A stretch of 22,347 nt of DNA. Origin: a virus. Below the pieces are notes generated by a model that worked only from the letters and a program-made list of their open reading frames with translations, was not told the DNA's origin and searched no databases. Position numbers and translations under genes: made by a program. Positions 3,930 to 20,325 of this stretch are shown here, in pieces. The stretch is from the IMG/VR virus record IMGVR_UViG_3300007234_003091, positions 1 to 22,347 of that record; one strand, given 5' to 3'. Position 1 is the stretch's first letter, and every line of letters begins with the position of its first letter.

Positions 3930-5390
3930 ATGGAACAGTTACAGTTACCTAAGCTTAGGAAGATTGATCCTAACAAACCAAAAAAGAAAAAGATTTTATT
4001 GTTATCAGATGACTTGCGCATGCATTCTGGTATTGCAACAATGTCACGTGAATTTGTAATGGGCACTCTTAAAGAGTATGACTGGGTACAGATTAGTGCA
4101 GCAGTAAAGCATCCAGAAGAGGGCAAAATTATGGATTTGTCCCAAAGCGTTGCAAAAGAGACTGGTATTAATGATGCATATTTAAAGTTATATCCTGTAT
4201 CAGGGTACGGTAATGCACAGATATTGCAGCAAGTAATGAATATTGAAAAGCCGGATGCAATATTGCACTTTACAGATCCTAGGTTCTGGGGTTGGTTATA
4301 TCAACTTGAACATTCGCTTCGTCAGCACATCCCCCTTATGTATTATAATATTTGGGATGATTTGCCATATCCGCATTGGAACGAACCATTTTACGAGTCA
4401 TGTGATTTGATCATGAACATTTCACGTCAGACTCAAAACATTGTAAAAAATGTTCTTAAAAAGTATCCTAAACCAGATTGGGCAGTGCAATGGGTATCGC
4501 ATGGTATTAATGAAAATGATTTCCGTATTATTAACGAATTGGATAAAGATTGGAATGAGTATAAAAAGTTTAGTGATGATTTTAAGAAAACTCATGACGT
4601 AGACTTTATTGTGTTCTGGAACAATAGGAACATTCGACGTAAGCAACCAGGGGATTTAGTGTTAGCGTTTAGTGAGTTTTGCAATCGATTACCAAAAGAA
4701 AAGGCAGACCGTACATGTTTACTAATGCATACTCAGCCAGTAGATCAAAATGGTACAGATTTATATGCTGTCGCAAATACAGTTGCACCTAATAGAAAAG
4801 TTTTCTTCACTGATGGGCATATAGATAGAAAGCAATTAAACTTCTTGTACAATATGGCCGATGTAACTGCTAATATTGCATCTAATGAAGGCTTTGGTTT
4901 ATCTCACGCAGAATCGTTAATGGCCGGCACGCCGATTATTAATAATGTAACGGGCGGTCTTCAAGATGGATGTCGTTTCGAAGATGAAGAAGGGAATTGG
5001 ATAGAATTCGATACAGAGTTTCCATCTAATCATAATGGAAGATATAAAAAGCATGCAGAGTGGGCTAAACCAGTATTTCCGACAAACAGATCATTACAGG
5101 GCTCACCACCGACGCCGTATATATTTGATGATAGAGTTGACTACAAGGATGTTGCGGATGCAATTGAATATTGGTATGAGTTAACACCACAAGAGCGTGC
5201 TGAGATGGGCGAAGCTGGACATGAATGGGCAATTGGTGATGAATCAAATTATTCGGCTAGAAAGATGTCTGAGCGATTTATAGAATGTATTAATACATGT
5301 TTAGATAATTGGACACCGAAAGAAAAATTCACGATGTATTCAGTGCCATTAAAACAAAGTTATGAATTTGAAAAAATAGGAGTATTATGA
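3930..5390 (+). CDS. GT-B glycosyltransferase (GT4-like)
   Basis: A 486-residue enzyme predicted to transfer a sugar from a nucleotide-sugar donor with retention of configuration. The N-terminal Rossmann half starts at KKILLLSDDLRMHSGIATMSRE. The C-terminal half has the GT4 donor-binding E-x7-E (E320 to E328 in NEGFGLSHAE), followed by SLMAGTPIINNVTGG. There is no signal peptide or membrane segment. It has a Lys-rich N-terminal extension, LQLPKLRK at 4-11 followed by KKKK, and the same LPKL motif recurs at the C-terminus of the next gene. A GGAG precedes the ATG. The last codons overlap the next start (ATGA at 5387), so the two enzymes are probably made together and may act together. Donor and acceptor are unknown. 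Confidence 0.88.
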   Translation: MEQLQLPKLRKIDPNKPKKKKILLLSDDLRMHSGIATMSREFVMGTLKEYDWVQISAAVKHPEEGKIMDLSQSVAKETGINDAYLKLYPVSGYGNAQILQQVMNIEKPDAILHFTDPRFWGWLYQLEHSLRQHIPLMYYNIWDDLPYPHWNEPFYESCDLIMNISRQTQNIVKNVLKKYPKPDWAVQWVSHGINENDFRIINELDKDWNEYKKFSDDFKKTHDVDFIVFWNNRNIRRKQPGDLVLAFSEFCNRLPKEKADRTCLLMHTQPVDQNGTDLYAVANTVAPNRKVFFTDGHIDRKQLNFLYNMADVTANIASNEGFGLSHAESLMAGTPIINNVTGGLQDGCRFEDEEGNWIEFDTEFPSNHNGRYKKHAEWAKPVFPTNRSLQGSPPTPYIFDDRVDYKDVADAIEYWYELTPQERAEMGEAGHEWAIGDESNYSARKMSERFIECINTCLDNWTPKEKFTMYSVPLKQSYEFEKIGVL

Positions 5391-6718
5391 AACCATATAT
5401 AGTAGTAATGGGTCCGGTGGCCACTAGGTCCGGATATGGCAATCATATGAGGGACTTATGTATAAGCTTAATTGATTCGGATAAGTATGAAGTTGATATA
5501 ATTTCATTGCCATGGGGAAACACTCCTATGGATGCACTCAAAGCAGATAACGAAGAACATCAGCGTATTTCTAGTCGTATTGCTAAGCAAAATATATCGC
5601 GTAAGCCAGATGTATTTATTCAAGTATCTGTCGCAAATGAATTTCAGGCGCATGGAAAATACAACATCGGTATTACAGCCGGCGTTGAGACAGATCAGCC
5701 GCCTGGCGAATTTATCGAAGGCTGCAATAAAATGGATTTGATTATCGCCACTTCAGAGTATACGAAAGAGAGCTTGCAAAAAGTATCATATGATAAGTTA
5801 GATAAGAAGACTAATCAAAAAATTGGCGATATTCGTCTAACTACGCCTATCGAAGTATTAGCAGAAGGAGCAGACCATTCGATTTATAAAAAACTAAAAC
5901 GAGCCGAAATTCATGAGTCGGTTGATGCATATTTGAGCAAAATACCTTCATCATTTAACTTTTTATTTGTTGGTCATTGGTTAAAAGGAGCCCCTGGTCA
6001 TGATCGTAAAGATGTTGCTATGATGATTAAGACATTTTGCGAAACATTTAAAAATAAAGCAAAACAGAATAAACCTGGTTTGATCTTAAAAACTAGCCAT
6101 GCAACGTTTAGTATAATGGACCGAGATGAAATTTTCCGTAAAATACAAGAGATTTTAGAACCGTACGGCGATAAGGCTCCTAACATCTATTTGATACATG
6201 GCGACTTAACGGATGAAGAAATGAATTCATTATATAACCATTCAAAGGTAAAGGCAATGATATCATTTACTAAAGGTGAAGGATTCGGACGTCCGTTATT
6301 GGAATTTACATTTAGTGGTAAGCCAGTAATTGCCTCTGACCACTCCGGCCATAAAGATTTCTTACGTGTGAGTCATATGTTACCGGGCGAACTTACTAAA
6401 GTACATAAATCGGCAGCCGATCAATTTATACTCGAAGGTTCAAATTGGTTTACTGTAAACTATCAATATGCATCTAAGGTTCTTAAAGATTGCGTTGACA
6501 ACTATAAAAATTACATGAAGGCAGCTAAAGAACAGTTTAAGATTAGCCGTAAAGAATTTACACGAGATATAATGGCTAGCAAATTATGTGCAATAGTTGA
6601 TAAAGGTATAGACTCAGTGCCTAAAGAAGTATCATTGCAATTGCCAAAACTTAAAAAATCGTCTAATTCTAGTACCCCTAAGTTAAAATTACCAAAACTT
6701 AATAAGGTAGAAGCATGA
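5387..6718 (+). CDS. GT-B glycosyltransferase (GT4-like) with repeated C-terminal LPKL tail
   Basis: A 443-residue GT-B enzyme. The acceptor half opens with GPVATRSGYGNH, the usual glycine-rich start. The donor half carries FVGHWLKGAPGHDRK and the E-x7-E motif E298 to E306 in KGEGFGRPLLE, followed by SGKPVIASDHSGH. After the fold ends near residue 405 there is a low-complexity basic tail with LQLPKLKK (417-424) and KLKLPKLNK (432-440). These resemble the N-terminal extension of the upstream glycosyltransferase. GGAG lies before the ATG, which overlaps the upstream stop by four bases. The tail looks like a docking or tethering peptide. The sugar and target are unknown. Confidence 0.88.
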   Translation: MKPYIVVMGPVATRSGYGNHMRDLCISLIDSDKYEVDIISLPWGNTPMDALKADNEEHQRISSRIAKQNISRKPDVFIQVSVANEFQAHGKYNIGITAGVETDQPPGEFIEGCNKMDLIIATSEYTKESLQKVSYDKLDKKTNQKIGDIRLTTPIEVLAEGADHSIYKKLKRAEIHESVDAYLSKIPSSFNFLFVGHWLKGAPGHDRKDVAMMIKTFCETFKNKAKQNKPGLILKTSHATFSIMDRDEIFRKIQEILEPYGDKAPNIYLIHGDLTDEEMNSLYNHSKVKAMISFTKGEGFGRPLLEFTFSGKPVIASDHSGHKDFLRVSHMLPGELTKVHKSAADQFILEGSNWFTVNYQYASKVLKDCVDNYKNYMKAAKEQFKISRKEFTRDIMASKLCAIVDKGIDSVPKEVSLQLPKLKKSSNSSTPKLKLPKLNKVEA

Positions 6719-7233
6719 AAGATTTAAAAGCAGATTATGATAGCACTTCGCCAATAACAGGCAACTTTTGTGTTATGGAAGAATCGGATCCAGAAACTAA
6801 TACTACATCGTATATGTGTATGGAGTCAGGTTGGACAACGTCAGACCATATGAAAATTGGGTCAGATTTAGTGCAAGCATTTGAGGAGAACTGTACGGAA
6901 CTAATGCGCAAATCTCGTATAGATGATGAAGAACGTGGATTAGTTTGGTTTCCTGCGTTTATGCAAATGCCTAATGCAATGTTGTACTGTACCGGTGCTG
7001 ATGTATCATCACTGAAATGGGAAGTTGCGGCAGTTATATCTGTTCCAGATGAAGAGAAGGAAAGATATCCTATTCCAGGACGCCCAGGCGAATACTATAC
7101 GTCTAAGTTGGATGTCGAAAATGCTAATCAATATGATAAGTTAGACTTTGAGACGGCATTAAACGAACTATATGATATCGTAGAAAAAGGTTATAATGAG
7201 TATAAAGATCAGTTACGCGATTCCGGTATGTAA
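6715..7233 (+). CDS. Conserved-looking phage protein of unknown function
   Basis: A 172-residue acidic, soluble protein that I cannot assign to a named family. It has a Cys/Met-rich N-terminal stretch (TSYMCMESGWTTSDHMK), a Trp/Pro/Met-rich middle (VWFPAFMQMPNAMLYCTGAD) and an acidic helical C-terminus. No catalytic motif, signal peptide or membrane segment is visible. It starts in the stop codon of the second GT4-like gene (ATGA at 6715), and the next glycosyltransferase starts 38 bases before its end, so it is embedded in the glycan block's translational chain. That placement suggests, but does not show, a role as an accessory factor of the flanking transferases. Confidence 0.75.
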   Translation: MKDLKADYDSTSPITGNFCVMEESDPETNTTSYMCMESGWTTSDHMKIGSDLVQAFEENCTELMRKSRIDDEERGLVWFPAFMQMPNAMLYCTGADVSSLKWEVAAVISVPDEEKERYPIPGRPGEYYTSKLDVENANQYDKLDFETALNELYDIVEKGYNEYKDQLRDSGM

Positions 7234-7831
7234 TGAATGGATGGAATTAGAGCATCTTCTAAAATACCTATTTAAACATAAACGTGATCAAGATGAGATT
7301 GTAGTTCAATGTGATAAAGGAAATACTACACCTAACGTGTATCAAGTACTACAAGAATATTCTACTTATTATTCTGTAGGATTTAAAGTAACTGAGTTCC
7401 CTTTAAACAAAGATTTTGCTTCATTTAAAAACAACCTTAAAGATAATTGTTCGGGGGATTACATATTCCAAATTGATGCCGACGAATATCCAGATGAATA
7501 TTTAATGGACATGATTGAGCCTACCATTAATATGAACAATTCAGTTGATATATTCTGGGTACCTAGAATTAATAAAGTAAATGGGCTTACTCAAGAGCAT
7601 ATTAACGCTTGGAAATGGAATGTCGATCGCGATGGAAGAGTTAATTTTCCAGACTATCAATGTCGTATCATGAAGAACGTGAAAAGAATTAAATGGAAAA
7701 ATAAAGTCCATGAAGTACTTACAGGATACAAGACAGAGGCTAAATTACCTGCAAATGATGAATTTTGTCTAATTCATATCAAAGATATTAAACGTCAAGA
7801 ACATCAAAATGCATTTTATGATACGATATGA
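7196..7831 (+). CDS. GT2-family glycosyltransferase (small, WaaE-like)
   Basis: A 211-residue GT-A fold inverting glycosyltransferase. It begins KISYAIPVCNE, the GT2 nucleotide-binding start, and has the metal-binding DAD at 94-96 in FQIDADEYPDE. Near the end is CRIMKNVKRIKWKNKVHEVLTGY, an arrangement typical of WaaE/KdtX-type GT2 enzymes. It is short because it lacks the long C-terminal extension of many GT2 proteins. The start is the ATG at 7196, 38 bases inside the preceding gene. No later ATG would keep the IPVCNE motif. It overlaps the following gene by four bases. The acceptor is unknown. Confidence 0.88.
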   Translation: MSIKISYAIPVCNEWMELEHLLKYLFKHKRDQDEIVVQCDKGNTTPNVYQVLQEYSTYYSVGFKVTEFPLNKDFASFKNNLKDNCSGDYIFQIDADEYPDEYLMDMIEPTINMNNSVDIFWVPRINKVNGLTQEHINAWKWNVDRDGRVNFPDYQCRIMKNVKRIKWKNKVHEVLTGYKTEAKLPANDEFCLIHIKDIKRQEHQNAFYDTI

Positions 7832-8850
7832 TTAAGATCAAATTATATGAATTAGATAAACATCGTAATGAGTGTGCGTTTCGGCCATATATAGCCGCTC
7901 AACACGTATTACGTGATATTGGGATAGAATTTACGCAGGGTGATTCGTATGATTATGCATGGATAGCTCAAGCTAGTTTTCTTAATAAGAAAGTATCATT
8001 AGGTCAGTCTGTAAACGATGGGTTAGAATTTTTGTCTAAAATTACCGGCGACTATATGTTGTTAGATGGGCAAGATTCTACATCATTACTTGGCTCGTAC
8101 GAAGTATTTAAAGAGTCTAATGCATTGCTTCTATTAAAGAATAGTCTGTTGAAGAATCGATCGTTATATAAACAAGGCTCACAACTAGGACGATATTATT
8201 GGGGACCGGGCGATTATAAATTAGAAGATTTCGACGACTATTCAGATCGTATAGTATTAAGTGGTACGAATTGGTTATCTACTCATTGGGCTGGTATCAA
8301 TGTACAATGGCAACAAATTGATAGACCACGTAAATACGATGTGTCAGCTATGTTTCAATATCCATCCAAGCAAATTAATTATGAACATGGAATTGACCAG
8401 ACCACGCCATATGATAAGTTTCGTACTAATTGTATAGATCAACTTAATCAATCGTCTAGACTAGTTGCTAAATTAGAAAACGGCGAACGCGTATCACAAC
8501 AGGAATACTTTCAACGAATGTATGATTCGAAGCTTATAGTAGCTCCGTTCGGATATGGCGAAATGGCTCCTAGAGATTTAGAAGCAGCGATGTTCGGATC
8601 AGTGCTTATTAAGCCAGATATGAGTTACGTAGATACTAATCCAAATGTGTTTGTACCTAACGAAACGTATATTCCATGTAAACATGATTTTAGTGACCTG
8701 AACGAAAAAATTGAAGAAATATTAGGAAATCAGGAGCAATATTCTTATATTATTAACAACGCACGTGCTAAGTATATTGAGGCAATGGATCCACAGACAT
8801 TAGCAATGAATGTGTATAACATATTTAAACAGTTGGACGGGATAGAATAA
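7828..8850 (+). CDS. Exostosin/CgeB-like GT-B glycosyltransferase, paralogue A
   Basis: A 340-residue protein whose C-terminal half carries SKLIVAPFGYGEMAPRDLE (near 234-252), then FGSVLIKPD and ETYIPCK, the pattern of exostosin- or CgeB-type GT-B transferases. The N-terminal half has TGDYMLLDGQDSTSLLGSYEVF (73-94). The gene at 13643-14665 encodes a protein of exactly the same length with the same block order, so the two are paralogues. No membrane segment is seen. Arginine codons are mostly CGN (11 of 14), as in most of the block. It overlaps both neighbours by a stop/start junction (ATGA upstream, TAATG downstream). Confidence 0.75.
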   Translation: MIKIKLYELDKHRNECAFRPYIAAQHVLRDIGIEFTQGDSYDYAWIAQASFLNKKVSLGQSVNDGLEFLSKITGDYMLLDGQDSTSLLGSYEVFKESNALLLLKNSLLKNRSLYKQGSQLGRYYWGPGDYKLEDFDDYSDRIVLSGTNWLSTHWAGINVQWQQIDRPRKYDVSAMFQYPSKQINYEHGIDQTTPYDKFRTNCIDQLNQSSRLVAKLENGERVSQQEYFQRMYDSKLIVAPFGYGEMAPRDLEAAMFGSVLIKPDMSYVDTNPNVFVPNETYIPCKHDFSDLNEKIEEILGNQEQYSYIINNARAKYIEAMDPQTLAMNVYNIFKQLDGIE

Positions 8851-9998
8851 TGAAAAAAATATGGTACGCTCCTTATAAGTTTGAATCTTATGGCAATGAG
8901 GAAATAAAAGCAGTTGAAGAATCATTAAAATCTGGTTGGTTAGGAGGACAAGGTCCTAGATCGGTTAAGTTCGAAAAAGAAATTGCAAAAAGATTTGGTA
9001 AGAAATATGGAGTATTTGTCAACTCCGGAAGTTCTGCATGTTTATTAGCAATAGCATCCCTTGATCTTCCTAAAGGAAGTAAAATTATAACTCCTGCTTG
9101 TACTTTTTCAACAACACTAGCTCCTATTATTCAATTAGGATACATTCCTGTATTTGTTGATGTCGATCCTACTTCATATTGTGCTAAAGTAGAAGATATA
9201 ATGGAAGTTCTAGACAAGGATGTAAGAGCTATAATGCTCCCTAACTTAATAGGCAACAAACCAGACTGGGAATCCCTCAGATTTGAATTAGATAACCATA
9301 ACAGACACGATGTGTTATTGATAGAAGACTCAGCAGATACTATCACTCATACAGAATGTACTGATGTGTCTACTACTAGTTTTTATGCTTCTCATGTTAT
9401 CACAGCTGGTGGAGTTGGAGGTATGGTAATGTTTAACGATAAAAAACATGTCACACGTTGCCTCCAATACAGAGATTGGGGGCGTATAGGAGATGATTCT
9501 GAAATAATGGATGATCGTTTTAACCACAAAGTAGATGGAATTCCTTATGATCATAAATTTTTATATAGTGTGTTAGGGTACCACATGAAAGCTTGTGAAA
9601 TGAATGCTGCTTTTGGCCTTGTTCAACTAAAAAGATTTGAAAAATTCTCTAAAATTCGTAGAGAAAATTTTGAAAGATACTTAGAAAATTTACAAGGTGT
9701 AGGAGATTTAGTTCTTCCTAATGATAGTCTTAAACCTAATTGGTTAGCTATTCCTTTACAAACTGAAAAAAGATTTGAACTCCTTACATTCCTTGAAGAA
9801 AATAATATTCAAACTAGAGTAACATTTGCTGGTAATGTAACACGTCACCCAGTTTATAGAGAATATTTGCAAGAGTTTACTAACTCAGATATTATTATGA
9901 AAAACGGTTTTTTGTTAGGAGCTCACCATGGAATGACAATTGAAGATGTAGATTATGTTTGTGATAAAATTAAAGAATTTTTTGCACGACAATTATAG
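8850..9998 (+). CDS. PLP-dependent nucleotide-sugar 3-dehydratase, ColD/RfbH-like (DegT family)
   Basis: A 382-residue DegT/DnrJ/EryC1/StrS fold protein. Where aminotransferases of the family have the PLP-binding Lys (S/A-x-K before GEGG), this one reads SFYASHVITAGGVGGMV with H182 (codon 9393-9395). Lys-to-His at this site defines the sugar 3-dehydratases ColD (H188) and RfbH/E1 (H220), which remove the C3 hydroxyl of 4-keto-6-deoxy sugars. RDWGR, YDHKFLYSVLGYHMKACEMNAAFG and LIEDSAD also match that branch. It lacks the Fe-S cysteine cluster that follows RDWGR in RfbH, so it is closer to ColD in type and length. The expected product is a 3,6-dideoxy-4-keto sugar, if the substrate is as in ColD. 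Arginine codons (12 of 18 AGA) differ from the neighbours, hinting at separate acquisition. Confidence 0.82.
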   Translation: MKKIWYAPYKFESYGNEEIKAVEESLKSGWLGGQGPRSVKFEKEIAKRFGKKYGVFVNSGSSACLLAIASLDLPKGSKIITPACTFSTTLAPIIQLGYIPVFVDVDPTSYCAKVEDIMEVLDKDVRAIMLPNLIGNKPDWESLRFELDNHNRHDVLLIEDSADTITHTECTDVSTTSFYASHVITAGGVGGMVMFNDKKHVTRCLQYRDWGRIGDDSEIMDDRFNHKVDGIPYDHKFLYSVLGYHMKACEMNAAFGLVQLKRFEKFSKIRRENFERYLENLQGVGDLVLPNDSLKPNWLAIPLQTEKRFELLTFLEENNIQTRVTFAGNVTRHPVYREYLQEFTNSDIIMKNGFLLGAHHGMTIEDVDYVCDKIKEFFARQL

Positions 9999-10018: not shown

Positions 10019-10699
10019 ATGAAGAATATTTCAATTTTAGGTGACGGCTTATTAGGATCAGAATTACAAAATCAACGATCGAACTGGATGTTATATTCTC
10101 GGCGACAGACGAATTTTGATATTAAAGATATCAATATACCTGAGTCAGATGTAATTATTAACTGCATAGCACATACAAATACATATGATACAGATCGACA
10201 ACCTAATTGGGACGTAAATTATAAATTCGTATCAGATTTAGTAGAATATTGTAATACGACTAATACTAAATTAGTTCATATATCAACAGATTATATATAT
10301 TCAAATTCTGACACAAATGCAACGGAAGATTCAGTGCCAGTTCATTGTAATAATTGGTATGGGTATACAAAGCTATTAGCAGACGGCTATGTACAGTTAA
10401 AAAGTAATGATTATTTAATTATTAGATGTACACATAAGCCGACTCCATTTCCATACGAATCAGCTTGGATTGATCAAATTGGTAATTTTGACTATGTCGA
10501 TTTAATAGCTTCATTGATAATAAAACTTGTAGAAAAAAATTGTTACGGCGTTTATAATGTGGGCACTCATACAAAGACTATGCATGAATTAGCAAAACGT
10601 ACTAGGATAGTAAGTTCATCATTCCGCCCAACATATGTGCCTGGCAATACTAGTATGAACATTAACAAATTAACAGGAGTTATATGCGATTTGCATTAA
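10019..10699 (+). CDS. Short RmlD-like NAD(P)-dependent sugar reductase (SDR)
   Basis: A 226-residue extended-SDR protein. The dinucleotide-binding GDGLLGS lies at 8-14, HISTDYIYS contains STD at 89-91, and the catalytic Y114-x3-K118 is in WYGYTKL. This is the order seen in dTDP-4-dehydrorhamnose reductase (RmlD) and related GDP-sugar synthases. It is about 70 residues shorter than RmlD, mostly in the substrate-binding part, so the substrate cannot be read across. Directly after a ColD-like dehydratase, it could reduce the 4-keto group of that product, as ColC does in colitose synthesis. That pairing is inference. GGAG precedes the ATG at 10019. It overlaps the next gene by 16 bases. Confidence 0.8.
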   Translation: MKNISILGDGLLGSELQNQRSNWMLYSRRQTNFDIKDINIPESDVIINCIAHTNTYDTDRQPNWDVNYKFVSDLVEYCNTTNTKLVHISTDYIYSNSDTNATEDSVPVHCNNWYGYTKLLADGYVQLKSNDYLIIRCTHKPTPFPYESAWIDQIGNFDYVDLIASLIIKLVEKNCYGVYNVGTHTKTMHELAKRTRIVSSSFRPTYVPGNTSMNINKLTGVICDLH

Positions 10700-13066: not shown

Positions 13067-13656
13067 TTATAAACAAAACATTAGTAGATGCTATTGACTT
13101 AACGTCGTATGTACACTTGATCTCTCGTAAAGATCATAAGCCAATTTTTCTAGCACCAGCCGGTGAAAATCATTATAAACTATTAGCTTATATTGCCACT
13201 CAATTAAATAATAAACTGATTATTGAGTTAGGTACGCATGAAGGAACGAGTAGTACGGCATTAGCTATTAATAAGTCGAACAAAATAGTTACATTCGACG
13301 TAAAAGATATGTATACGGTGACAGCCCAGCCTTCAAATGTAGAACGTAAGATTGGTAACATATTTAAACTGGGCATGCAAGATGTATTATTGCAGTCCGC
13401 AGTTATTTTCTTAGATACTGCTCATCGCGGAGATTTTGAATGGGAAGTATATTCATTTCTTAAAGAGAACGACTATAAAGGCATTCTAGTCTTAGATGAC
13501 ATTCATTGGAATGACGCCATGAAAAAGTTTTGGGAAAAAATTGATACGATTAAATATGATGTCACGCATTTAGGCCATGGCATTTGCCCGGATGGGATTG
13601 CCGGTACCGGGATTGTAGATTTTAGTGATCAGGTAGTTATAGATGATAAAAATTAA
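13063..13656 (+). CDS. Class I SAM-dependent methyltransferase
   Basis: A 197-residue methyltransferase of the Methyltransf_24 or CmcI-like kind. Motif I is IIELGTHEGTSS (53-64). An acidic residue closes the second strand at TFDV (77-80). FLDTAH is at 116-121, and VLDDIHW at 143-149 supplies the metal-type DD-x-H signature of O-methyltransferases that act on sugars or catechols. The last third contains HGICPDGIAGTGIVDF. Placed between two glycosyltransferases and coupled to both by overlaps of 4 and 14 bases, it probably methylates a sugar hydroxyl of the glycan made by this block. Confidence 0.8.
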   Translation: MIINKTLVDAIDLTSYVHLISRKDHKPIFLAPAGENHYKLLAYIATQLNNKLIIELGTHEGTSSTALAINKSNKIVTFDVKDMYTVTAQPSNVERKIGNIFKLGMQDVLLQSAVIFLDTAHRGDFEWEVYSFLKENDYKGILVLDDIHWNDAMKKFWEKIDTIKYDVTHLGHGICPDGIAGTGIVDFSDQVVIDDKN

Positions 13657-14665
13657 ATTGTCCGATCCGACAGATCAAAAAAACTTTAGCGGGCTGTTAC
13701 ATGCACGTGATATACTACCCGAGTATAGTATACAGCTCACAGATTCAAATGACTATGATTATGAATTTGTATCTCATAAGAATTATGTAGATTCTTCTAT
13801 ACCACTCGAATATAGTATAGAAAAAGGTATCAATGCATTAGCAAATAAGACTGGCGATTATTTTTTGTTTAGTGGTGCAGATTCTACGTCATTGTTAGGT
13901 GCATATGAAGTTTTTTCTGAAAGTAGTGCAAAGTTTTTATTCAAAAAACAACTATTATCTCGTGAAGATTATAGACAGCCGGCAGCGTTGAATAAATGGT
14001 TCTTTGGTAATGGGACATTATTAGACAAAGGATATGATATTCCTAACGATGAATATAATCGTATACAATTAACTGGTTATAATGTAGGACACAATTGGCC
14101 ACATCTGCATCAATTACAGTATCCAACTAACGTACGTGATATTGACGTATGTGCAGTATATCAAACACATATCCCACGTGAAGTATATGATCATGAAGTA
14201 CGTAGTGATACATTATATGCTGCACACCGCGATAGAGCCTGGCAAGAATTATCAAATCTCGAAAAGAAGTATCGTATCATAAAAGGACAGTCGACACCAC
14301 AACAATTTGTAGAGATTATGAAACGATCTAAAATCGGAATATCGCCATTTGGAATGGGCGAATTATGTTATAGAGATCTAGAACTAGTACAGTGGGGATG
14401 CCTACTCGTTAAACCAGATATATCTAAAGTGAAAACAAAGCCGGACTTTTTCAAACCGATGGAAACATATGTTCCGGTCAAGCCAGATTGGTCAAATCTA
14501 AACGAAACAGTTGAGAAAATACTTGGAAATTGGCAAGATTATCAATATATTATCGATAATGCAAGAAGGCAGTTATCAGAAATGTATTCATATCATAATG
14601 TTTGTATGCACTGGTACAAATTTTTTGCTAACTTAGATAATATATCTACGCAGGAAGAACAATGA
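13643..14665 (+). CDS. Exostosin/CgeB-like GT-B glycosyltransferase, paralogue B
   Basis: A 340-residue paralogue of the protein encoded at 7828-8850. Shared blocks are MIKIKL at the start, TGDY-x-L with DSTSLLG-x-YEVF-x-ES (70-93), SKIGISPFGMGE and RDLE (229-247), GCLLVKPD, ETY-x-P-x-K, and ILGN-x-Q-x-YQYII-x-NAR near the end. Other parts diverge strongly, so this is an old duplication or a separately acquired relative. The ATG lies 14 bases inside the methyltransferase gene, and MIKIKL at both paralogues supports this start. It ends in an ATGA overlap with the deacetylase gene. Donor and acceptor are unknown. Confidence 0.75.
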   Translation: MIKIKLSDPTDQKNFSGLLHARDILPEYSIQLTDSNDYDYEFVSHKNYVDSSIPLEYSIEKGINALANKTGDYFLFSGADSTSLLGAYEVFSESSAKFLFKKQLLSREDYRQPAALNKWFFGNGTLLDKGYDIPNDEYNRIQLTGYNVGHNWPHLHQLQYPTNVRDIDVCAVYQTHIPREVYDHEVRSDTLYAAHRDRAWQELSNLEKKYRIIKGQSTPQQFVEIMKRSKIGISPFGMGELCYRDLELVQWGCLLVKPDISKVKTKPDFFKPMETYVPVKPDWSNLNETVEKILGNWQDYQYIIDNARRQLSEMYSYHNVCMHWYKFFANLDNISTQEEQ

Positions 14666-15264
14666 AAAAGATATTAGCAATTGCTCCGCATACTGATGAT
14701 ATTGAGTTAGGTTGCGGCGCAACGTTAAATAAACTAAAAGATACATGCCAGATTGATGTAATCGGCATTACATCGGCACAGCCACTAGCAATTGGCGACC
14801 CTGTAGAAGAATTCTACCAAGCAATGTCCATACTTAAAGCTAATGTGACATTTTTAGACTATACACCTAGAATATTAAATGAACAACGACAGAAATTGCT
14901 AGATTATTTTTGGAAACTTAATCAAAATAATAAATACGATTTAGTTTTCTGTCCATCATCATACGACCATCACCAGGACCACCAAGTAGTATATCAAGAA
15001 ACGTTTAGAGCATTTAAGCATTCGACTATTTTAGGATATGAACTGCCATGGAATAATCGCACGTTTAGGACAGATGTGTTTATATCAGTACAAGAAGATG
15101 ATCTAAATGCTAAAATAAAGATGTTAGATTGTTACAAAACGCAACAGGAGCGTGCGTTTATGTGTAAAGATTACGTATATGATATGGCTCGTACACGCGG
15201 ATTGCAAGTTGGCAAGAAATATGTAGAATCATTTGAAGCAATTAGAATTGTAGATTTAGTATGA
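14662..15264 (+). CDS. PIG-L/LmbE-family N-deacetylase
   Basis: A 200-residue zinc-dependent deacetylase of the PIG-L/LmbE fold. The N-terminal PHTDD (9-13) gives the first metal ligands and the catalytic Asp, and DHHQDH (102-107) gives the distal His ligand. SSYDHHQDHQVV and LGYELPW also fit the family. Known members remove acetyl from GlcNAc-containing molecules in GPI-anchor, mycothiol and bacillithiol synthesis and in antibiotic pathways. Here the likely substrate is an N-acetylated sugar of the glycan or its nucleotide-sugar donor, leaving a free amine. AGGAAG lies upstream of the ATG. Both ends overlap neighbours by four bases. No membrane segment is present. Confidence 0.9.
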   Translation: MKKILAIAPHTDDIELGCGATLNKLKDTCQIDVIGITSAQPLAIGDPVEEFYQAMSILKANVTFLDYTPRILNEQRQKLLDYFWKLNQNNKYDLVFCPSSYDHHQDHQVVYQETFRAFKHSTILGYELPWNNRTFRTDVFISVQEDDLNAKIKMLDCYKTQQERAFMCKDYVYDMARTRGLQVGKKYVESFEAIRIVDLV

Positions 15265-16592
15265 AAAATGTAGTATGGTGGGCTGGTGTAAAAACTAGCG
15301 AATTCAATGATAAATACGGCGGCCATGATTGGATTGAAATATCAAAAAAATCTTGGCAGTACTGGTGCAAACAGAATGATGTAGAGTTTGTTGCATTCGA
15401 GGAACCTATTGAAAAAGATGTACGTCGGTTTAGAATCAATTGGCAAAAATCTATTTTTGTATTTGATGAATTGGAACGTCGTAATATCGATTATGATCAG
15501 ATATGTCTTGTCGATGCATCGTCAATAATTAAATGGGATGCGCCAAATTTCTTTAACTTAACAGACCATCAGTTTTGTGCTGTTAAAGAAACAGATAACA
15601 TGAATTGGATGTTGGCTAGTATAAAGGGGTATGAGCCATTTTTTGGATATAAACTTGACCCAATCAAGTATTTTAGTAGCGGCTTCTTAGTCTTTAATAA
15701 ATTGCATAGAGAGCTGTTCATGTCATTTAAACAGCTATATTATGATAATGTAGATACATTTGTAAAATTACAGGATGAAATAGTACGTAAAGGTACAGAA
15801 CAAACGCCATTAAATTATTTAGCACAGATACAAGGAGTCGATGTAAAGTTTCTATCGCCGGCATGGAAGTTGACTCATATAAATCGTAAAGAAATGTTTC
15901 AGCATAATTGGCAACTTCAAGAAGATGCTCGTCCATTTTTTGAAAAGTATGGTTATATATGGTTCTTTACTGGAATTAATAAAGAGAATCGATCACATAT
16001 TATGTCTCAAGCTTGGGAAAGGTATAAGACATTTTATTCAGACGATCACGTGTTAAATAAGATTAAGAATAAACATATTGCAAAATATACTACGAGTCAT
16101 AAATTTAAACAGGATATATTATACTTTTTTTCAGCTGAAAAATATAAACAAATGAATGTGCTTGAATTAGGTGCATGCCGCGGCGACACGACTCGTATAT
16201 TAGCCGAATGTTTTAATCATGTTTATAGCTACGAGCTCGATAATACTAATATTGCGGATGCTCGAAATATTACTAGTGATTGTGATAATGTAACATTGAC
16301 ATGTGCTGATGTATATGACAAAGACTTCGATTTACCAGATGTCGAAATTCATGTAGCATTTATAGACGCAGGCCATACAGCCGACCATATTAAATATGAT
16401 ATTGAACGTATTAAACGTAAATATGGAGATGTTATAATGATATTTGATGACTATGGGCAACCGGACCGGGCATTGTATAATGAAATTAATCAATTAGCTG
16501 TTGATAGATATATTGGTGAAAATGCAGGCTTTGTAACTGCAAATGGAATTAAATTTGTAACATCAGAAGGTGTTATATGTAATATGAAGTAA
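15261..16592 (+). CDS. Fusion: GT8-like GT-A domain plus SAM methyltransferase
   Basis: A 443-residue two-domain protein. Residues 1 to about 260 are paralogous to the whole protein encoded at 16596-17375, a GT-A/GT8-like transferase. Residues from about 275 to 443 form a class I methyltransferase with VLELGACRGDT (300-310), an acidic close at YELD, FIDAGH (367-372) and FDDYG (395-399). In the transferase half, the metal-binding DAD of the paralogue is DAS (85-87), FDSG is FSSG (138-141) and DQTP is EQTP (180-183), so three acidic positions are altered together. The GT half may bind sugar without metal-dependent transfer, or use another mechanism. The methyltransferase motifs look intact. The start overlaps the deacetylase gene by four bases with no clear ribosome site. 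Confidence 0.8.
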   Translation: MKNVVWWAGVKTSEFNDKYGGHDWIEISKKSWQYWCKQNDVEFVAFEEPIEKDVRRFRINWQKSIFVFDELERRNIDYDQICLVDASSIIKWDAPNFFNLTDHQFCAVKETDNMNWMLASIKGYEPFFGYKLDPIKYFSSGFLVFNKLHRELFMSFKQLYYDNVDTFVKLQDEIVRKGTEQTPLNYLAQIQGVDVKFLSPAWKLTHINRKEMFQHNWQLQEDARPFFEKYGYIWFFTGINKENRSHIMSQAWERYKTFYSDDHVLNKIKNKHIAKYTTSHKFKQDILYFFSAEKYKQMNVLELGACRGDTTRILAECFNHVYSYELDNTNIADARNITSDCDNVTLTCADVYDKDFDLPDVEIHVAFIDAGHTADHIKYDIERIKRKYGDVIMIFDDYGQPDRALYNEINQLAVDRYIGENAGFVTANGIKFVTSEGVICNMK

Positions 16593-16595
16593 GAT

Positions 16596-17375
16596 ATGAA
16601 AAATATTATATTCTTAGTTGATGTAAAATTGCCCGGTAAGCAAAAAGATGTAGGTCGTTGGGCCGGAACGCGAAGCGATCCGTATAAGTTTAGTATTGAT
16701 AGTTGGAAAGAGTGGAGTAAACATAACAATTGTGAAGTATTTATTCTCAATGATTTAATACGAGATCATAGCGATATGCCAGTTTCATGGCAACGGTATT
16801 ATATATTTGATCTATTAGAAGCCAATGAAATAGAATATGATCAGATTATGTATGTAGATGCTGATACAATCGTGCATCCAGATTGTCCTAATGTATTCGA
16901 AATGAGTGATAGGAAATTTTGTTTTGTACATAATGATGGTAGCTATGATTGGGTTCTGCGTAGTATAGAAAATTATTCAAGACATTTCTTTAACGGATAT
17001 ATGTTTAGATTCGATCACTATTTCGACTCAGGCATGTTAATTTTTAATAAAGATCATAAACAATTTTTCAGTGATATCATATCATTTTTTGATAATAATC
17101 GAGATAGACTGCTTGAAGCGGAGAAAGTATGGCATGTGGGAACAGATCAGACCCCGGTCAATTTTTTAACGCATATAAATGAAATTGATTACAAAGTGTT
17201 GCCATATGAGTATAATATGGTCGATTTGAATCGTAAGGAATTATTACAAGAAGATCTGCCTTTTACTCAATTAGGATGGATATATCAGTACAATTCGATT
17301 CCAAACAATAAAGATGATCGATTGACATATTATTGGATGGAAAAAACATATAATAAGCTTTACAAAGGAAAATAA
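16596..17375 (+). CDS. GT8-like GT-A glycosyltransferase
   Basis: A 259-residue GT-A enzyme with an intact DXD: VDADTIVHPD (87-96) matches the GT8 pattern of a DAD followed by a hydrophobic pair. FDSGMLIFNKDHKQFF (143-158) and GTDQTPVNFL (182-191) are the other conserved blocks of the fold. The protein is the single-domain paralogue of the N-terminal half of the fusion just upstream, and is likely the active copy. It starts three bases after the upstream stop with no obvious Shine-Dalgarno sequence, so it may rely on coupling. Its stop is followed after one base by the next ATG. Sugar and acceptor are unknown. Confidence 0.82.
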   Translation: MKNIIFLVDVKLPGKQKDVGRWAGTRSDPYKFSIDSWKEWSKHNNCEVFILNDLIRDHSDMPVSWQRYYIFDLLEANEIEYDQIMYVDADTIVHPDCPNVFEMSDRKFCFVHNDGSYDWVLRSIENYSRHFFNGYMFRFDHYFDSGMLIFNKDHKQFFSDIISFFDNNRDRLLEAEKVWHVGTDQTPVNFLTHINEIDYKVLPYEYNMVDLNRKELLQEDLPFTQLGWIYQYNSIPNNKDDRLTYYWMEKTYNKLYKGK

Positions 17376-18828: not shown

Positions 18829-20325
18829 ATGAAACGTACGATAAAATTTATACAAATCGGCACTAGTGTAGCGAATGATGACGTATTTGAAAAAGTAAAA
18901 GATTGCGACATCGAATTAGGAATATTAGTAGAACCGATACCGAAGTTCAAGGAAGAGATTTTACAGTGCTATGATGGCATAGATAATATATATTTAGAGC
19001 AAGTTGCAATAGTTTCAGAAAATTCTGACCAGCAAAATGCTACTCTTTTTTGTAGTGATACGCATCTAGGCATTGCGTCGTTCAATAAAGATCATTTAAT
19101 TGTACATAGAATAAATGATGCGGATATATATGAAATAAACACGCCTTGTCTTAAGGTATCTGATATATTTGAAAAATATGACATACAAGAACTAGATTAT
19201 TTGTTTATAGACACTGAAGGTTCGGATGCGGACATACTTCTATCTATAGATTTCGCGAAAGTTAACATTACAGAAATCGTATTTGAAGATATTCATATAG
19301 ATGGACCGCAGAAATTTGGAGGAAATAAGACTAGGGAGTTGTTTACTCATTTAATGCGATCTGGATATACTCTTACTAAAGAACATAAATGGAATACTAC
19401 AGCGAAACTGCAACATAAAATAACAACGTGCATTTCTACAAACAATAATTTAGAGTATCTTAAATTAGCAGTGCAGTCTGTTAGGCAGAATGCATACTAC
19501 AAAAATATGCCAATTATCGTTTATGCAGAAAATTGTACGGATGGTACCGATGAATGGCTAGCTGATAATGAATACGATATTGAATATTATATTGAAAAGA
19601 ATGATACCGAAAAGGGCATCGGAGGCGGTATGGATTTTTGTGTTGACAAAGCTAAAACGGAGTTTGTTAACATTATTCATTCTGATATGTGGATTGCGCC
19701 AAATCAAGACTTAGAACTACTTAAGTTATATACAGGACTAGATCCTAATGAAAGACTTATAGCATCGTCTTTTAGAATCCAACCAAAAATATTTCCTAAT
19801 GACCCAGATTATAGGCCTGGCACGGTATTTGTACCTATGAATGAATTCGGTGCATATCATAATGATTTTGACAGTAAATATTTTGATGAATGGTCTTTGG
19901 AATTTTGTGAAGAAAATGATATATTTGTAAGGAAAGGTGGAGGCGCCGGCTTTTTTTGTAGAAAACGAGATTATGAATGGATTGGCGGTAATGATCCACA
20001 GTTTGCACCGGCCTCTTGGGAAGATAAAGATTTGTTTATTCGAATGCAGTTAGAAGGATATACATTTAAGATGACGAGCAAGTCTGTGGTATGGCATTTT
20101 AGTGCACGTGGCAGTCATTTTAGAGATGAAGCTAAAGATGACTTTAGCAAGAAATCCCAAAGGCAAATCAGATCTGAACAATTTAATTCACAGAAATTTA
20201 TAAACAAATGGGGCCGGCTACCTGAAGATGATGAACAGACATTTGTTAAGCCTATTTATGGAACTAATGTAAAAACAAGATTAGGAAGTTATGAAGATAA
20301 GTTTAATTCAGCCATCTCGCAATAA
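18829..20325 (+). CDS. Fusion: FkbM-type methyltransferase plus GT2 glycosyltransferase
   Basis: A 498-residue two-domain protein. Residues 1 to about 190 are FkbM-like: KFIQIGTSVANDD at the start, then VEPIP, and the family mark FIDTEGSDADIL (126-137). Residues from about 197 on form a GT2 domain: ITTCISTNNNLEYLKLAVQSVR, the metal-site HSDMW (284-288), GGNDPQFAP followed by WEDKDLFIRMQLEGY, and WHFSARGSHF. One protein would thus add and methylate a sugar. The GT2 half resembles the next gene's product, block for block. No Shine-Dalgarno is visible: the leader (18807-18828) is almost all A. A-rich leaders can help initiation by exposing the start. The start is fixed by the FkbM motif. Confidence 0.88.
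   Translation: MKRTIKFIQIGTSVANDDVFEKVKDCDIELGILVEPIPKFKEEILQCYDGIDNIYLEQVAIVSENSDQQNATLFCSDTHLGIASFNKDHLIVHRINDADIYEINTPCLKVSDIFEKYDIQELDYLFIDTEGSDADILLSIDFAKVNITEIVFEDIHIDGPQKFGGNKTRELFTHLMRSGYTLTKEHKWNTTAKLQHKITTCISTNNNLEYLKLAVQSVRQNAYYKNMPIIVYAENCTDGTDEWLADNEYDIEYYIEKNDTEKGIGGGMDFCVDKAKTEFVNIIHSDMWIAPNQDLELLKLYTGLDPNERLIASSFRIQPKIFPNDPDYRPGTVFVPMNEFGAYHNDFDSKYFDEWSLEFCEENDIFVRKGGGAGFFCRKRDYEWIGGNDPQFAPASWEDKDLFIRMQLEGYTFKMTSKSVVWHFSARGSHFRDEAKDDFSKKSQRQIRSEQFNSQKFINKWGRLPEDDEQTFVKPIYGTNVKTRLGSYEDKFNSAISQ

Follow-up and report, generated by a model that had tools for sequence, protein, structure and literature searches.

Sugar 3-dehydratases employ PMP, which condenses with the substrate's 4-ketone to a Schiff base; a histidine then takes the PMP C4' proton and O3 leaves, after which the reaction is completed either by electrons delivered through a [2Fe-2S] cluster, as in E1 and SpnQ, or, as in ColD, by hydrolysis, with glutamate restoring PMP (PMC8987622, PMC10440746). 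Only these three 3-dehydratases are described as well characterised (PMC8987622). Tertiary alcohols are built on ketones by ThDP enzymes of three classes, the decarboxylase (YerE-like), transketolase and alpha-keto acid dehydrogenase types; YerE uses CDP-3,6-dideoxy-4-keto-glucose, and a CDG motif has been called unique to JanthE (PMC12247030). In the 22,347-nucleotide stretch of DNA analysed here (the window; IMG/VR virus record IMGVR_UViG_3300007234_003091, from a marine phage), the plus strand encodes at 8850-9998 a 382-residue DegT-family enzyme of the His type without Fe-S ligands, identified by Pfam, NCBIfam and PDB searches and an AlphaFold2 (AF2) model, which we propose to be a PMP-dependent NDP-4-keto-6-deoxyhexose 3-dehydratase.

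Active site of the window protein

Automatic annotation names this protein an aminotransferase, both by PHROGs ('aminotransferase') and by Pfam (PF01041, DegT/DnrJ/EryC1/StrS aminotransferase, 241 bits), as a preliminary description made from the DNA letters had anticipated. The top NCBIfam model is RfbH (equivalog NF011936), at 263 bits against a curated cut-off of 423, and a PDB search returned E1 (3bcx, E=3e-58) ahead of ColD (E=3e-36). The AF2 model (pLDDT 94.8) is structurally closest to E1 (VIA Z 45.6, 361 residues, rmsd 2.2, 37% identity), with ColD at Z 43.5 and 28% identity in the structural alignment; since certain Lys aminotransferases slightly outscore ColD in this comparison, the fold does not discriminate function. 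For PDB entry 9wvy, titled as a putative NDP-4-keto-6-deoxyglucose-3-dehydratase, no paper was found in a partial literature search.

Positions 9375-9425 lie in frame within the ORF and translate to TSFYASHVITAGGVGGM, and the segment SFYASHVITAGG (9378-9413, plus strand) contains Y179, equivalent to E1 Y217, and, encoded at 9393-9395, H182. HMMER alignment places H182 on the catalytic H220 of E1 (3bcx, SFYPAHHITMG), in the column that holds lysine in the solved E1 mutant H220K (3bb8, SFYPAKHITMG). This column is histidine in 78/78 close relatives, in all six Fe-S RfbH proteins and in all four ColD-type proteins, against lysine in 9/9 aminotransferases, so that the replacement of the PLP lysine by the residue diagnostic of ColD and RfbH, as originally read, is borne out. 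The internal-aldimine lysine of sugar aminotransferases (ArnB, PseC, PerA and others) is absent in all 78 relatives, with no lysine next to the histidine; a shifted PLP lysine is ruled out, as residues 176-197 contain none, the next being K198, and every member has the histidine. The motif SFYASH[VIL]ITAGG is kept in all 80 viral loci (the best 80 of the 186 viral relatives from a first scan, at 76-100% identity), and H182, Y179, D160, D163, S177 and SGSSA (59-63) are invariant in an alignment of 56 sequences whose members range down to 40% identity with the window protein. The conservation of the motif and the invariance of H182 indicate that SFYASH is no chance occurrence: the protein is real, well conserved and functionally constrained.

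Further residues ally the protein with E1. The segment D160-S161-A162-D163 (9327-9338, plus strand) aligns its cofactor aspartate D160 with E1 D191, A162 with C193 and D163 with D194; the D163 position has the E1-type aspartate in the window protein, glutamate in ColD and H, C or Q in aminotransferases. The preliminary description had assigned RDWGR and YDHKxxYSxLGY to the ColD and RfbH branch alike. Both are present and match E1 (RDWGRDCYC, YDHKYTYSHLGY), but ColD has RAHGWTR instead, and because WGR is common to RfbH and absent in ColD these are E1 features. The window protein thus has in common with E1/RfbH (3bcx) H220, Y217, D194, WGR, YDHK..YS.LGY, the fold and its position in the tree, and departs from it in the [2Fe-2S] cysteines, in the second His of HH, which is Val or Ile, and at F345. 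The counterpart of the last, L299 (9744-9746, plus strand), is a signature of the close relatives (Leu in 78/78), its equivalent being Phe in RfbH and in ColD alike. ColD (2gms, 3b8x) resembles the window protein in having His for the PLP lysine and in lacking a full set of Fe-S ligands, so that both would be expected to use hydrolytic PMP chemistry, but it differs at the D163, W210, R212 and L299 positions and forms a branch of its own.

The RfbH cysteines are missing, as had been claimed: E1 C193, C251, C253 and C261 align with A162, G214, a gap and M220, and W210-G211-R212 with the loop that follows (9477-9509, plus strand), corresponding to the C251, C253 and C261 region, is free of cysteine. 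None of the 78 close relatives has the loop cysteines. At the C193 position phage members have Ala, and 36 of the 67 cellular ones have Cys; the complete four-Cys set occurs in no clade member. The four-Cys [2Fe-2S] motif of SpnQ-type enzymes, which take a 2,6-dideoxy substrate, is likewise absent from the window protein (motif as described in PMC8987622). Unlike E1/RfbH, the window gene has no E3-type partner seen beside it, and an E3-type reductase domain (PF00175, NAD_binding_1) was detected in 2 of 23 phage records, which are fragmentary and whose hosts could serve with their own proteins. Two other cysteines, C64 (9039-9041) and C84 (9099-9101), adjoin cofactor-site motifs and are invariant among 11 phage members (alignment A1); they vary in the wider 56-member alignment.

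Descent, distribution and genomic setting of the SFYASH clade

The preliminary description spoke of a 3-dehydratase in a phage. The gene does lie in a phage, but it belongs to a large clade (the SFYASH clade) shared with bacteria: a genome scan recovered 66 cellular loci (38-78% identity) in Patescibacteria, SAR86, SAR11 (Pelagibacter), Prochlorococcus, Rhodospirillales, Chlamydiae and others, to which one Ensifer replicon is added. The catalytic-position histidine is present in all 67 of these bacterial and archaeal members and the Fe-S loop in none; some of the cellular contigs nearest the phage members may themselves be viral. In an 81-row tree all His enzymes separate from all Lys enzymes with support 100, so that the tree, like the alignment, sets the protein apart from the Lys aminotransferases. 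A 39-row tree resolves the SFYASH clade (support 100/99), Fe-S RfbH (98/93) and ColD (99/95), and joins SFYASH with RfbH (96/89); in topology tests on this tree, SFYASH with ColD was not rejected (AU p 0.11) and RfbH with ColD was just rejected (p 0.04). The clade is probably neither ColD nor E1. The original designation as ColD-like therefore probably fails for descent, which more likely lies on the E1 side, and holds for the chemistry that the missing cysteines lead us to expect. The clade is widespread and apparently unnamed, and a partial literature search found no published report of it or of phage branched-sugar pathways.

A megablast of the whole window found no isolated phage relative; kinship with isolated phages is limited to glycosyltransferases of Flavobacterium phage immuto and Microcystis phage Mel-JY01. 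Upstream of the 3-dehydratase gene lies a glycosyltransferase cassette (3930-8850, plus strand), four gene clusters of which recur in about 70 of the 80 viral loci. It consists of two glycosyltransferase genes (3930-5390 and 5387-6718), a gene for 172 residues (6715-7233), a GT2-like gene (7196-7831) and a glycosyltransferase-like gene (7828-8850) whose product of about 340 residues has a weak glycosyltransferase match only; a similarly sized protein encoded at 13643-14665, also with weak glycosyltransferase matches, is an apparent paralogue of it. A PIG-L type de-N-acetylase (14662-15264) also belongs to the glycan cassette. Phage immuto (vB_FspM_immuto_3-5A) has a window-like gene order of GroEL, DUF3310, PD-(D/E)XK nuclease, two glycosyltransferases, a small ORF, GT2 and DegT, but its DegT protein (15783-16979), in the same slot as the window gene, reads SLQAIKHIT and is a Lys-type aminotransferase; depending on the phage, then, this slot is occupied by an aminotransferase or by a 3-dehydratase. 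Immuto also has a second, short DegT-like ORF (19492-20136).

A His-type DegT enzyme is likewise part of the glycan cassettes of the Synechococcus phages ACG-2014f, S-CAM7, S-H68 and RN05-S. The genes of ACG-2014f and S-CAM7 (L086, 7893-9086, and L087, 7929-9062) belong to the ColD branch, and those of S-H68 (L085, 9845-11140) and RN05-S (L090, 9854-11149), which encode all four cysteines, to the Fe-S RfbH branch, so that phages contain at least three 3-dehydratase branches. Several of these cyanophage 3-dehydratases are annotated as aminotransferase or hypothetical protein. A further candidate homologue, in a 'Salmonella phage' (OR851175.1), was set aside, as it is a bacterial-type rfbH on an unverified 2.6 kb contig and probably host contamination.

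Alternating SDR and ThDP genes downstream

The gene that follows in the window (10019-10699, plus strand) encodes a compact RmlD-like SDR of 226 residues (Pfam RmlD_sub_bind), a putative reductase for the 4-keto group of the 3-deoxy product. It contains STD (S89) and YGYTK (Y114-K118), and S89, Y114 and K118 are invariant in 28 members. Its profile finds RmlDs at the top of the PDB (E 1e-18), its AF2 model (pLDDT 92.8) has RmlD as the leading Foldseek matches, and it is about 60 residues shorter than RmlD.

Among the 80 phage loci (the best of 186), 55 have only this type of SDR near the SFYASH gene, usually as the adjoining gene and as in the window, 20 have only a ThDP gene, a single locus combines the two, and the remaining four lack both, three of them ending at a contig edge. 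The mutual exclusion is pronounced (Fisher p 6e-15), but since this value disregards relatedness the better measure is the number of switches on the 3-dehydratase tree, where the SDR or ThDP state changes eight times by parsimony, at least three of the changes being forced by supported branches. By Pfam the phage ThDP genes fall into three kinds. One is a complete TPP enzyme of the YerE/JanthE type, with JanthE (8rph, E=1e-168) as its nearest match; the other two are split, either into N and C halves of a transketolase or into E1_dh and Transket_pyr halves. The three kinds correspond to the classes for which branching of keto-sugars is known or has been proposed. Of the phage YerE-like proteins initially placed with that of L219, most carry CDG; a more divergent set has GDG. 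A reciprocal scan from a CDG-type protein recovered nine viral loci, each with the gene just downstream of the SFYASH gene. Near cellular members, YerE-like genes occur in eight loci and transketolase halves in three or four, by approximate best-match assignment.

The sister phages resemble the yersiniose pathway (YerE, JanthE): directly behind the 3-dehydratase they have a YerE/JanthE-like ThDP enzyme, which is followed by an SDR. They differ from it in their dTDP context and Fe-S-free 3-dehydratase, and the window phage differs again in having the reductase instead. In three phages (L166, L170 and L179) an HpcH/HpaI aldolase-family gene lies between the 3-dehydratase and YerE-like genes, and its product could be a hydroxylated 2-oxo acid donor, as ErwE prefers. 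Another phage (L224) has RmlB-like and YerE-like genes far from the 3-dehydratase, at downstream positions +9 and +10, and is missing the usual SDR. On Azospirillum lipoferum plasmid AZO_p6 (L231, 1-2646), a ColD homologue (E=3e-121) adjoins E1-alpha and transketolase-C genes, which suggests that ColD feeds the synthesis of a branched sugar in this bacterium.

Substrate, proposed mechanism and competing readings

The preliminary description had put forward GDP-4-keto-6-deoxymannose as the substrate to test, and the neighbours of the clade members speak for another nucleotide sugar. In marine bacteria, rmlA and rmlB genes passing curated cut-offs lie beside the SFYASH gene of a gammaproteobacterium (L141) and a Prochlorococcus (L123), and rmlB passes also in a Pelagibacter (L136) and a Rhodospirillaceae locus (L145); an SDR and rmlC, or a gene like it, are also present at these loci. 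Best reference matches, an approximate assignment, put RmlB-type genes no more than six genes away in 40 of the 65 cellular loci, RmlA genes in 18 loci and genes of RmlC types in 21. Two phages (L220 and L221) have an RmlB-like gene directly downstream that matches the dTDP-glucose 4,6-dehydratase model at 292 and 307 bits, the phage RmlB-like proteins as a whole scoring 286-307 bits, under the curated cut-off of 365. Because the relatives sit with rmlA, rmlB and rmlC-like genes, the substrate is most likely dTDP-4-keto-6-deoxyglucose. A CDP pathway was rejected, RfbF/RfbG-like neighbours being rare and weak in the cellular loci; in this respect too the locus differs from E1/RfbH, the genes nearby being of dTDP and not CDP type. 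No 4,6-dehydratase is encoded in the window, so the substrate would have to come from the host or from an unsequenced part of the phage.

We regard it as likely that the enzyme is an Fe-S-free PMP 3-dehydratase with hydrolytic release, and that the C4 ketone of its product is used by the SDR here and by ThDP enzymes in the sister phages. The NDP-4-keto-6-deoxyhexose would condense through its C4 ketone with PMP to a ketimine, and proton abstraction from C4' of PMP by H182 would be accompanied by loss of the C3 hydroxyl; hydrolysis of the aldimine, needing neither an Fe-S cluster nor reductase electrons, would give PLP and an enamine that sheds ammonia to yield a 3,6-dideoxy-4-keto sugar, and glutamate would reconvert PLP to PMP. 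Reduction of C4 by the adjacent SDR would supply the glycosyltransferases around it in the window phage with a 3,6-dideoxyhexose, whereas attack on the C4 ketone by the ThDP enzyme of sister phages would lead to a yersiniose-like branched sugar. The SDR or ThDP neighbours support 3-deoxygenation, and with it the original suggestion of a 3-deoxy sugar. Hydrolysis is the better fit because cluster ligands are missing and NAD_binding_1 is so rare in the phage records; descent from the E1 branch, whose characterised members are the nearest relatives and use electron transfer, counts against it.

That descent gives some credit to the idea that an E1-like reductive mechanism persists, with electrons arriving by another route or through another metal site, for which C64 and C84, invariant in the phage set, might be considered. 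As neither cysteine is invariant among the 56 sequences, no member has the four-Cys set and only 2 of 23 phage records have NAD_binding_1, we hold this to be very improbable. It is unlikely, though less so, that the enzyme is a ColD orthologue in substrate too, removing O3 from GDP-4-keto-6-deoxymannose toward colitose or a related GDP sugar. The shared lack of Fe-S cysteines would suit such an orthologue, and dehydratases that are presumably Gmd-like occur elsewhere in a few phage contigs (PF16363, 413 bits in G022 and 393 bits in G002) and as the best match of a neighbour in four cellular loci. Yet the ColD-type residues (the E194 equivalent, HG and F345) are missing and the RfbH-type WGR and D194 are present, no GDP-mannose pathway was found beside the window gene, and the cellular neighbours and adjacent phage dehydratase best fit dTDP-glucose 4,6-dehydratase models.

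An atypical His-bearing transaminase making a 4-amino sugar deserves equally little credence as the reductive mechanism. SpnQ does transaminate when its reductase is absent, but ColD and E1 gave no transamination under similar conditions (PMC8987622). The DegT fold and the Lys-type protein of immuto in the same slot would agree with transamination; the main argument against it is that the RmlD-like SDR and the ThDP enzymes both need a free C4 ketone, which a 4-amino product would not leave them. Loss of the PLP lysine would by itself also permit a protein that is catalytically dead or recruited to another role, a reading to which we attach almost no weight given that H182, Y179, D160, D163, S177 and SGSSA are invariant across 56 sequences, some of them only 40% identical.

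The SFYASH enzymes may form a third class of 3-dehydratase, Fe-S-free and of E1-side descent, with dTDP-4-keto-6-deoxyglucose as its substrate, whose product an uncultured lineage of aquatic phages would either reduce or extend with one of the three kinds of ThDP carboligase, making 3,6-dideoxy and yersiniose-like sugars of their own; we judge this wider proposal to be evenly balanced. What is most unusual is the breadth of the clade together with the exchangeable next step in phages. Automatic annotation should be treated with caution here, as it names these 3-dehydratases aminotransferases. An E1-side clade without the cluster raises the question whether ColD-type hydrolysis arose twice or E1 gained its cluster. 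The phage loci amount to a natural experiment in which one 3-dehydratase is combined with alternative next-step enzymes; they offer new YerE-like, transketolase-like and E1-like carboligases for testing, and the SDR or ThDP pairing predicts which rare sugars these phages could make.
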